A stretch of DNA of 64,000 bases from Brevundimonas guildfordensis (lineage in GTDB: Bacteria; Pseudomonadota; Alphaproteobacteria; Caulobacterales; Caulobacteraceae). The position numbers and the translations under genes are program-made. Shown piece by piece: positions 37,885-40,460 of the stretch. The first letter of the stretch is position 1. Each line of letters starts with the position of its first letter. The notes below the pieces were generated by a model. The model saw only the letters and a program-made list of their open reading frames with translations. It was not told the origin of the DNA and did not search any database. The stretch spans positions 62,001-126,000 of the forward strand of contig NZ_JACSQU010000003.1 of NCBI RefSeq assembly GCF_014836405.1, written 5' to 3'.

Positions 37885-38028
37885 GTCGCGCCACGGCGCT
37901 GCGGGCGCTGACAGCAGAGCCCTGCTCCGGGGTCATCGCTCGCCACGGCCCGTTCCCTTGACGGGAGAATAATGAACGCTGCGCCGAGATCCGCATTAAC
38001 CTTTGCGGCCGAAACAAGGAGCGCAGCC

Positions 38029-38859
38029 ATGAAGGCTCTATTCTACGCCGCCGCCGGCGCGGCGGTGCTGATCGCCGGCGCCGCCGAGGCCCATCAGGCC
38101 GGCGCCCGATACAACGCCGCCGCCGGCTACGCGCGGGGCCCCGTGGTCCAGAGCCGCGCGCAGACCTGGTACAGCGACACCGGCTGGCAAGGCGGCTACG
38201 GCCCAATCGAGAGCTACGGCTATGGTTATGGCTACGGCGGGGCCGGGGTTCGTGCGCCCGTCGTGATCGCCCCATCGCATCCGCCCATCCAGCAGGGGAG
38301 CTATGGTGACGCCGGCGTCACCCGCTCCATGCCCTACGGCTATCCGGTCGACGGCTACGGCCGCTATCCGTGGGCGCGCTACGGCTATGGCGGCTACGGC
38401 GGCGAGTACAGCGGCAGCCAATATAGCGGCAGTCAGTACGGCGGCGGTTACCAGCAGCAGGGGCACTACCAGCACGGGCATTATCAGGGCGCGTACGCCG
38501 CTCCGCAGCAATATCGCGGCGAGCCGATCTACGTCAGCCAGCCTCCGATCTATGTCTCGCAGCCGCCCGTCTATGTGGAGACGCCGCCGATCTATGTGCA
38601 GCCGGCGCCAGTCTACGTCGAACCGGCCCGCGTCCATGTCGCCCCGCCGCCGGTGCATGTGGCGGCCGCCGACGTGCGCGTCGCCCCGGCTCAGGTCGAA
38701 GTGGCCCGTCCCGACATCTATGTCGAGCCGCCGCGCGTCGAAGCGGCCCCGCCGGTCGTGAACTTCGATCAGGGCTACTACGCCGTGCCGCCGCCCCCGC
38801 CGCCTCCGCCCTCGCCTACCGAGCGGCCCTACCGCCAGGAACGCGGCGAGCGCGGTTGA
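38029..38859 (+). CDS. Secreted Gly/Tyr-rich protein with (I/V)YV-x-PP repeats, function unknown
   Basis: A 276-aa protein with the signal peptide MKALFYAAAGAAVLIAGAAEA. Residues about 20-130 are Gly/Tyr/Ser-rich (YGYGYGYGG, GSQYSGSQYGGG) and His/Gln-rich. Residues about 165-250 contain at least nine degenerate 7-10-residue units of the type PIYVSQP, PVYVETP, PIYVQPA, PVYVEPA, PVHVAAA, DIYVEPP. It ends with a polyproline run and basic RQERGERG. An extended surface or envelope protein is likely, but this is inferred from composition alone. The start ATG at 38029 has AAGGAG; the frame is open 19 codons earlier. A TTAACC sequence lies 28 bp upstream. Confidence 0.85.
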   Translation: MKALFYAAAGAAVLIAGAAEAHQAGARYNAAAGYARGPVVQSRAQTWYSDTGWQGGYGPIESYGYGYGYGGAGVRAPVVIAPSHPPIQQGSYGDAGVTRSMPYGYPVDGYGRYPWARYGYGGYGGEYSGSQYSGSQYGGGYQQQGHYQHGHYQGAYAAPQQYRGEPIYVSQPPIYVSQPPVYVETPPIYVQPAPVYVEPARVHVAPPPVHVAAADVRVAPAQVEVARPDIYVEPPRVEAAPPVVNFDQGYYAVPPPPPPPPSPTERPYRQERGERG

Positions 38860-38867
38860 TACGAAAA

Positions 38868-38891
38868 GGGCGGCGTCTGCAGACGCCGCCC
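38868..38891. terminator. Bidirectional terminator between the Gly/Tyr-rich gene and pyrF
   Basis: A perfect 24-bp palindrome with arms GGGCGGCGTCTG/CAGACGCCGCCC. Plus-strand tail CCTTCTGTTT; minus-strand tail TTTTCGT. Both flanking genes end here. Confidence 0.8.
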
Positions 38892-38895
38892 CTTC

Positions 38896-38911
38896 TGTTT
38901 CACGTGAAGCA
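38896..38911. promoter_or_regulatory. parS site (ParB-binding centromere), 15/16 match
   Basis: TGTTTCACGTGAAGCA matches the parS consensus TGTTTCACGTGAAACA at 15 of 16 bases (G for A at position 14). It lies in the 82-bp space between two convergent genes, 4 bp after the terminator palindrome. parS sites cluster near the replication origin and seed ParB spreading. Confidence 0.85.
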
Positions 38912-38941
38912 CGATCTTCTTCAGGATCAGGCCCCTAGCGG

Positions 38942-39664
38942 TCAAACGCGTGCAATCTCTTGCGTGATCGCCTGCGCCGCTGCGCGCGGGTCTGGCGCCG
39001 CCGTGATCGGGCGGCCGATGACCAGATGGGTGGCGCCAGCCTCCAGAGCGCTGGCCGGGCTCGCGGCGCGCGCCTGATCATCCATCGCCGCCCCGGCAGG
39101 CCGCACGCCCGGCGTAACGATCAGGAAATCCTCGCAGCCTGCTTCAGCCGCGATCTGCCGCGCCCGACCCGCCTCGTGCGGGCTGGAGACGACGCCGTGG
39201 ACGCCCGCCTCCAGCGCCTGACGCACCCGCAGCTCCACCAGTTCGGCGGCCGACAGACTGTGAGCATCCGCCCTCAGATCATCGTCGGTCAGGCTGGTCA
39301 GGACGGTGACGCCCAAGATCTTCAGGCTTGAGCCCGCCGCGCCCCGCGCCGCCGCCGCCATCACCTGCGGCCGGGCGTGAACCGTCAGCAGGTCGCAACC
39401 CGCGTTCGCCAGCACCGCCGTCGCCTTCTCCACCGTCGCGCCGATGTCGTGCAGCTTCCAGTCCAGAAACACCTGGGCGCCGGACGCTTTCAGCTCCCGC
39501 GCCAGCGCCATGCCGTCCGAGGCGAACAGCTGCAGACCCACCTTGTAGAACCCGACCGCATCGCCGATCCGCTCGACCAGAGCCCGCGCCTCATCGGTCG
39601 TCGGCACGTCCAGAGCGCAGATGACGCGCGGGTCAAAGGGACGATTGGCATGAGGTTCTGACAT
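38942..39664 (-). CDS. pyrF: Orotidine 5'-phosphate decarboxylase
   Basis: Last step of UMP synthesis; 240 aa. The catalytic Asp-Lys-x-x-Asp array is in VFLDWKLHDIGATVEKA (about residue 66-72). The start strand RVICALDVPTTDEARALVE and phosphate-binding TPGVRP and GATHLVIGRPIT complete the family pattern. The start is the ATG at 39664 (MSEPHANRPFD); 18 in-frame codons upstream were left out. It converges with the Gly/Tyr-rich gene and is divergent from marC. Confidence 0.97.
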   Translation of the reverse strand: MSEPHANRPFDPRVICALDVPTTDEARALVERIGDAVGFYKVGLQLFASDGMALARELKASGAQVFLDWKLHDIGATVEKATAVLANAGCDLLTVHARPQVMAAAARGAAGSSLKILGVTVLTSLTDDDLRADAHSLSAAELVELRVRQALEAGVHGVVSSPHEAGRARQIAAEAGCEDFLIVTPGVRPAGAAMDDQARAASPASALEAGATHLVIGRPITAAPDPRAAAQAITQEIARV

Positions 39665-39761
39665 TTCCAGCTCTCGGCGGCTTGCAGGCGCGCGCGGATG
39701 CCCCGATAGGTGGGGCAAGGAGTCGCGGTCGCGCGGCGGGTTTTAAGGGCGGGATGGAGCA

Positions 39762-40460
39762 ATGAACGCGGTCGATCTGGGGGTCAACCTGTTCGTGGCG
39801 CTGTTCGCCTTGCTGGACCCCATCGGCAATGTGCCGATCTTCGCCGCGGCCACGGCGGGCGCCTCCCTGCGTCAGCGGATCAGCGTTTCGGCCATGATCT
39901 GCCTGTTCGCCGTCGTCTTCCTCGGCTTCTTCTTCTTCACCGGCCTGGGCCTGCTGCAGTTCTTCGGCATTTCGCTGGCCGCCTTCCGCATCGCAGGCGG
40001 CATCCTGCTGCTGTTGCTCGGGCTGGACATGGCGCGCGAGGACTTCCTCGCCATCTTCGCCGACGCCGACGCCGCGACCGACGCCAAGGACGTGCGCGGC
40101 TACGCCAAGCGCCGGTTCAAGCGGCTGATCGTGCCCTTCGCCATTCCCCTGATGATCGGCCCCGGCGCCATCTCGGCCGTCATCATCAACGCCGGCGAGG
40201 CGGCCAAGCTGGGCCTGGTCGGCACCGTCTCCTCCCTGGTCGCCATGGTCGCCGCCTGCGTGGTCACCTTCCTGTGCTTTTCCGCCACCGGTCCGATCAG
40301 CCGCCTGCTGGGCGACGTGGGCATGGCCATCGTCGTGCGGGTGCTGGGCCTGATCCTGTGCGCCCTGGCGATCCAGTTCATCCTGATGGGTCTGGGCGAG
40401 GCCCTGCCGGGCATGTTCAGCGCCGGCGTCACCGCCCCCTACCCGGCCGGCGGCGAATAG
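39762..40460 (+). CDS. MarC family (UPF0056) membrane protein
   Basis: A 232-aa protein with about six membrane segments. The family signature is near the start (FVALFALLDPIGNVPIFAA), followed by GLGLLQFFGISLAAFRIAGG and LLLLGLDMA, and in the second half IPLMIGPGAISAVI. MarC proteins were once linked to multiple drug resistance, but no transport substrate is established. There is a longer cytoplasmic loop with Asp/Ala (about residue 100-115). Convergent with the SDR gene (3-bp gap). Confidence 0.9.
   Translation: MNAVDLGVNLFVALFALLDPIGNVPIFAAATAGASLRQRISVSAMICLFAVVFLGFFFFTGLGLLQFFGISLAAFRIAGGILLLLLGLDMAREDFLAIFADADAATDAKDVRGYAKRRFKRLIVPFAIPLMIGPGAISAVIINAGEAAKLGLVGTVSSLVAMVAACVVTFLCFSATGPISRLLGDVGMAIVVRVLGLILCALAIQFILMGLGEALPGMFSAGVTAPYPAGGE

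Follow-up and report, generated by a model that had tools for sequence, protein, structure and literature searches.

A putative satellite parS site beside pyrF in one clade of Brevundimonas

Organization of the pyrF-side gap

The window analysed here is a continuous stretch of 64,000 nucleotides from Brevundimonas guildfordensis, equivalent to bases 62001-126000 of contig C4 (480,245 bases) in a genome of 10 contigs. Near its position 38.9 kb, two genes converge on a short gap, with a Gly/Tyr-rich open reading frame (ORF) ending at 38859 on the + strand and pyrF ending at 38942 on the - strand. The gap and its flanks hold the following features, in window coordinates.

37972..38859, + strand: Gly/Tyr/Pro-rich ORF without a Pfam match, its start resembling a signal peptide by eye
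38868..38891, no strand assigned: perfect 24-base hairpin, ending 4 bases before the parS-like site
38896..38911, no strand assigned: parS-like site (putative satellite), 16-mer TGTTTCACGTGAAGCA, read on the pyrF strand as TGCTTCACGTGAAACA
38942..39661, - strand: pyrF, orotidine 5'-phosphate decarboxylase (PF00215)
39762..40460, + strand: marC-family membrane protein (PF01914), a flank of the site only

The pyrF ORF opens at 39718, and the ATG at 39661 is its likely start. On the pyrF strand, the word at 38896-38911 agrees with the parS consensus TGTTTCACGTGAAACA in 15 of 16 positions. Its single mismatch falls at the third base of the first half, and the second half-site, GTGAAACA, is perfect. 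No other word in the window lies within three mismatches of parS (one found, against a shuffle mean of 0.03).

The hairpin is probably a bidirectional terminator serving the two convergent genes. The first-pass annotation of this DNA had placed a near-consensus parS word in a convergent-gene gap, directly behind such a terminator. The converging ends of the Gly/Tyr-rich ORF and pyrF, together with the 24-base hairpin, bear out this arrangement. The terminator itself is recovered by scan on the + strand only (one found versus 0.3 expected from shuffles), and the T-rich tail on the - strand, TTTTCGTATC, is read by eye only. The hairpin's T-rich tail on the + strand includes the TGTTTC half of the parS-like site.

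On the pyrF side of the site, window positions 38913-38928 carry two GATC words about 8 bases apart, which form a short inverted repeat. Paired GATC words accompany the pyrF site in six of the eight genomes whose word has the left half TGCTTC.

Chance expectation and the ten-base core

Expected counts were obtained from an order-2 Markov model trained on 248 kb of contig C4. Under this model, the expectation for parS words with up to one mismatch is 0.00007 per 64 kb and 0.003 per genome, and for words with up to two mismatches 0.09 per genome. The genome contains five and eight such sites, respectively. All five of the former fall inside 72 kb, and all eight of the latter lie on contig C4. 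The 15/16 match at 38896-38911 is thus beyond chance, as the first-pass annotation had proposed. Its estimate of roughly one window in a thousand is correct under even base composition (49 x 64,000 / 4^16) and too generous at 68.5% G+C. A coincidental match would fit a site that is single in the window and one base away from consensus. Given the expected frequency per window and the retention of the word at one orthologous place, this explanation has a practically negligible probability.

The ten-base core TTCACGTGAA occurs four times in 2,875,662 bases, namely at the pyrF-side site and at three of the four cluster parS sites described below. This distribution argues against a general regulator. 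An operator for another regulator recognizing a CACGTG core would suit the palindromic and intergenic character of the word. Besides the distribution of the core, the location between two 3' ends speaks against such an operator, as does the result of a sigma-70-type consensus scan, limited to that promoter type, which found no promoter at 38400-39400. We regard it as very unlikely.

Genome position and the parS cluster

The remaining sites with at most one mismatch form a compact group on the same contig.

C4:167816, 169548, 171051 and 172305: cluster parS sites, at most one mismatch, spanning 4,505 bases (C4:167816-172320)

These sites lie in or beside rho, mnmE, mnmG, rsmG and parA, with parB next to them (mnmG named by eye). 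The first is located in or just before a 113-codon ORF, and the last two are inside mnmG and parA. Genes around all four sites share one direction. The earlier assumption that a convergent gap is the usual place of parS therefore fails in B. guildfordensis, where the cluster genes are co-directional and two of the four sites are within genes.

Cumulative GC skew reaches its turning point, a minimum, at C4:162-172 kb (248 kb examined). The predicted origin, C4:162897-163344, is bounded by hemE (PF01208) on one side and a Kinase-PPPase gene (PF03618), of a family formerly called DUF299, on the other. The Caulobacter origin is described as flanked by hemE and the DUF299 gene COG1806 (PMC1914354). 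The interval C4:162891-163360 has 36.6% A+T. Only 0.4% of stretches in the 248 kb have a lower G+C than the most A+T-rich 300 bases in this interval or up to 100 bases from it.

The predicted origin is about 62 kb away from the pyrF-side site and the nearest cluster site 66.9 kb away. Seen from the cluster, the pyrF-side site lies in the direction of the origin and beyond it. Both GC skew and the hemE/COG1806 landmark thus agree with the view that the window is origin-proximal. The genome-wide parS scan that had been proposed for comparison with GC skew was carried out and yields a canonical four-site cluster near the skew minimum. A terminus location with no other parS site nearby had been named as grounds for rejecting the site; the cluster is found 67 kb away. 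With this distance from the parA-parB cluster and about 62 kb to the origin, the word reads as an outlying satellite parS and not as the main centromere. Of the original label, parS centromere site, the parS-like part is retained.

The gene dnaA is found at G000:C4:371127-371609 (G000 being the window's genome), about 208 kb from the predicted origin. It is hence a poor origin marker in B. guildfordensis, and the comparison with dnaA, also suggested beforehand, led to this landmark being dropped. For comparison with the gyrB hot spot of Caulobacter (PMC5815017), C4:22001-270000 was scanned with short motifs for gyrB, recF and smc. None of these was detected and only dnaK was, in a scan that can miss genes.

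Two additional words, at C4:158557 in secB (PF02556) and at C4:226765 in an ORF named ComM-like by eye, were considered as parS. They are not counted because both lie in coding sequence and have two mismatches each.

The ParB protein

A single ParB_N-domain protein was found in the genome, adjoining parA, and it aligns with Caulobacter ParB (6t1f) at E 5e-82. Along this alignment, its specificity residues are R173, T179, Q184 and G201, in the numbering of PMC7383237, which is 10 higher than that of chain 6t1f. Of these, R173, T179 and G201 are conserved with respect to Caulobacter ParB. Residues 173, 179, 184 and 201 set specificity for parS versus the Noc-binding site (NBS), with R173 and G201 as the parS-type pair (PMC7383237). 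The genome thus encodes ParA and a ParB with parS-type specificity residues. An NBS identity for the word was rejected, since it calls for a cognate protein with Q173 and R201, and R and G stand at these positions in the one ParB_N protein detected.

Conservation of the site across the genus

Conservation was approached through pyrF and, separately, through the word itself. For the former, 80 of 212 pyrF loci, from named records with up to 8.7 kb of DNA each, were searched with at most three mismatches. Eleven of the 80 carry a word, in every case starting 12-52 bases after the matched pyrF end, and 69 have no word at this threshold. Six of the eleven words are TGCTTCACGTGAAACA, four are TGATCCACGTGAAACA and one is TGTTCCATGTGAAACA.

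A tree of pyrF DNA was built from 38 of the 80 loci plus the window, with carriers defined as lying within two mismatches of parS. Carriers belong to one clade with support 98/98, comprising 12 of 15 rows inside versus none of 24 outside. The row nearest to the window is Brevundimonas naejangsanensis DSM 23858 (92% of bases). Non-carriers within the clade are L016, L017 and L021, the last two forming a sister pair, and L016 retains what looks by eye like a shortened and decayed remnant of the word. The site is accordingly dispensable in these three. By eye on the pyrF tree, one gain and two losses explain the spread of the pyrF-side site. Among laboratory strains, B. diminuta ATCC 11568 carries it and B. 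vesicularis NBRC 12165 lacks it.

The half-site GTGAAACA is identical in all 12 carriers, with variation in the spacer and the terminator. Subclades have different left halves (TGCTTC, TGATCC or TGTTCC) and GAAACA stays unchanged. Fourfold-degenerate pyrF sites served as the reference: in the seven TGCTTC-type rows 73 of 133 columns are invariant, giving a chance of 7e-5 for 16 invariant bases, and in the 12 carriers 29 of 116 are, giving 1.5e-5 for the eight unchanging bases of GTGAAACA, both values being on the favourable side because sites are treated as independent, L016 is left out and carriers were chosen by their nearness to parS.

In a search through the word, TGCTTCACGTGAAACA occurs in 10 of 131 genus genomes, eight times at the pyrF end and twice elsewhere (G094 and G128). 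In these two genomes it lies 1.6 kb from another parS word, among cluster sites. TGATCCACGTGAAACA is present in seven of the 131 genomes at eight places, seven of them at pyrF. When the eight TGCTTC genomes are aligned, the word stands out as exactly 16 invariant columns with variable columns on both sides, in an alignment whose rows were chosen by the exact word and which therefore leans towards the conservation claim. Five other invariant runs in it, of 14-25 columns, are all coding sequence. By eye, the terminator is gone or replaced in L020 (found via pyrF) and in L111 and L113 (found via the word), and the word stays in all three.

These patterns bear on two alternatives. An RNA element, either another hairpin or a continuation of the terminator, is suggested by a word that abuts the terminator and supplies part of its + strand T-rich tail. 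Nevertheless, shuffled sequences fold as well as the word itself (z 0.22), its left half varies among subclades with no compensating change in the constant right half, and some carriers lack the terminator (by eye). The probability of an RNA element is accordingly minimal.

The second alternative, which overlaps with the satellite-parS reading, is a former or weak parS that arose by chance near the cluster and is drifting, touched by ParB without consequence. Caulobacter tolerates a second parS cluster over about 500 kb around the native one (PMC5815017), which fits this idea. So do the three clade rows without the site, the apparent remnant in L016 and the variation of the left half. The constancy of GTGAAACA in 12 carriers weighs against drift, with the caveat that its chance value is too favourable and carriers were defined by parS nearness, as does the persistence of the word in L020, L111 and L113. 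A weak or former parS is a serious possibility, if not the one we would expect.

Control genomes and other family members

Six carrier-free genus genomes were picked and searched at two mismatches. In five, all sites fall within about 5 kb, and the sixth, G062, carries an additional two-mismatch word on a separate contig (C47). Among 20 other genomes of the family, 15 have one tight cluster or a single site. G155 has its two parS sites on two contigs, and single two-mismatch words occur elsewhere in G004 (C22), G146 (C1:1073128) and G141 (C7). Words distant from clusters also include TGTTTCAGCTGAAACA, with two mismatches, in G131 and G133, two-mismatch words at G128:C1:940742 and G123:C1:3200420, and a one-mismatch word at G088:C1:3181518. 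Words of this kind, some of which must be due to chance, count against the satellite reading, as do the 69 pyrF loci with no word and the three clade rows without the site.

G143, from another genus of the same family (L146-L154), departs conspicuously from this pattern and contains 11 parS words, eight of them perfect, on nine contigs of 15-306 kb. Directly after each word, in an orientation chosen in its favour, stands a companion, YGACCGNNNNNGTCG, exact in seven of 11 cases and with one or two changes in the other four, so that parS is adjoined by an inverted repeat. The arrangement has the appearance of a composite parS scattered through much of a 2.9-Mb genome, and a second DNA-binding protein may read the companion. 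At the six listed parS-like sites of the window's genome, YGACCGNNNNNGTCG was not found. In G150, seven perfect parS words lie within 3.4 kb (C6:176311-179703).

A second candidate satellite and the layout around the cluster

A second candidate satellite, GTTTCACATGAAAC, is located at C4:200818, between a NifU-like gene and the next gene. It is present in 21 of 131 genus genomes, including all 15 that have the two pyrF-site words. In G096, GTTTCACATGAAAC lies 1.6 kb from a cluster site, that is, within the cluster; hence this CATG variant too seems usable. The occurrence of both TGCTTCACGTGAAACA and the CATG-variant satellite word beside cluster sites in other species suggests that ParB probably accepts the two.

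Geometry was taken from nine carrier genomes in which cluster, pyrF site and second satellite share one contig, with cluster orientation read from the parA word. The pyrF site is 62.2-70.7 kb from the nearest cluster site, GTTTCACATGAAAC is 20.9-28.9 kb from it, and the two occupy opposite sides of the cluster in all nine. The pyrF site is on the parA side in six genomes (G131, G134, G132, G086, G088 and G123) and on the side of rho in the other three (G000, G137 and G068). An inversion of the origin core would explain these two sides. The distance kept on either side, together with gain in one clade, suggests that nearness to the cluster outweighs side. A more speculative and doubtful extension is that one Brevundimonas clade grew its centromere outward stepwise, with selection holding the satellites opposite each other through the inversion, as separate islands for loading ParB (and SMC) to either side of the origin.

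Other extra words were recorded in the genus. B. terrae carries words at distances of 52 and 64 kb from the cluster. The 64-kb word, TGTTCCACGTGAAACC (L142 10059), sits between convergent genes, about 7 kb away from pyrF, and B. pishanensis, which is without the pyrF site, has a like-placed counterpart (L144 12398). In three TGATCC-type genomes, a one- or two-mismatch word lies 80-92 kb beyond the pyrF site (G001:C1:887607, G088:C1:3181518 and G123:C1:3200420). The G001 word is within an ORF and may be chance or coding.

Proposed function of the pyrF-side site

By all sequence criteria run, the word at 38896-38911 appears to be of parS type, outlying and clade-specific, in a layout unusual for the family. 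We consider it very probable that it is a genuine clade-specific satellite parS, serving as an extra loading site for the chromosomal ParB. Its cellular importance is less sure than ParB loading.

In the proposed mechanism, ParB dimers would recognize the satellite palindrome, close as CTP clamps and slide over a kilobase or two of flanking DNA. Clamp closing and sliding are established for Caulobacter ParB. By analogy, pyrF and its neighbour would come under a small ParB island at a distance of about 67 kb from the cluster of four sites. Such an island could widen the origin-proximal region that is pulled by ParA and engaged early after replication by MipZ/PopZ and SMC.

ParB cover may include pyrF and the Gly/Tyr-rich ORF. 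Cover of marC is doubtful, because ParB spreading from a lone Caulobacter parS in E. coli reaches at most about 2 kb (PMC5815017). Caulobacter ParB binds parS at nanomolar strength. For two of seven putative Caulobacter sites binding is weak, and a significant role in vivo was considered unlikely (PMC5815017). The single mismatch of the pyrF-side word could likewise weaken ParB binding.

Comparison with known systems

A literature search on Brevundimonas parS returned no paper on that subject, judged by titles and abstract openings, and one on outlying parS sites and ParB in alphaproteobacteria found nothing. The closest described system is that of Caulobacter crescentus, with the same 16-bp palindrome, a ParB of the same family and a near-origin cluster (PMC5815017). 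One half-site (GTGAAA) is conserved among the Caulobacter sites (PMC5815017), as one is in Brevundimonas. In Caulobacter the five strong sites are confined to 5 kb (PMC5815017), whereas in Brevundimonas further conserved words resembling parS are found about 28 and about 67 kb off, on opposite sides of the cluster.

Widely spaced parS sites are reported from more distant bacteria. In Bacillus subtilis and Corynebacterium glutamicum, origin-proximal parS sites are many kb apart; the ten of C. glutamicum occupy 35 kb at a distance of 73 kb from oriC (PMC5815017, PMC7083940). Pseudomonas aeruginosa is likewise reported to have further origin-proximal parS sites many kb apart (PMC4368675). These three species belong to other phyla or classes and differ in ParB spreading range. 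The outlying Brevundimonas site, in turn, is a one-clade gain in a family where 15 of the 20 other genomes sampled show a single tight cluster or site.

Tran and colleagues raised the question of how a bacterial centromere region expands and mapped tolerance of extra parS by transposon insertion (PMC5815017). Zones permissive or competent for parS extend over about 500 kb in Caulobacter (PMC5815017) and about 650 kb in P. aeruginosa (PMC5098823), and the satellite lies inside a zone of such size. Insertion or relocation of parS revealed those zones, whereas the Brevundimonas satellite occurs naturally and can be mapped onto a tree. The genus offers a natural series within the same family as Caulobacter, in which the satellite was probably gained once, mostly kept and lost in some. 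Depending on the genome, it is found to one side of the cluster or the other, a pattern that inversion of the origin core would produce, and its distance has hardly changed. The coexistence of carriers and non-carriers in one genus allows a direct test of the role of an outlying parS.
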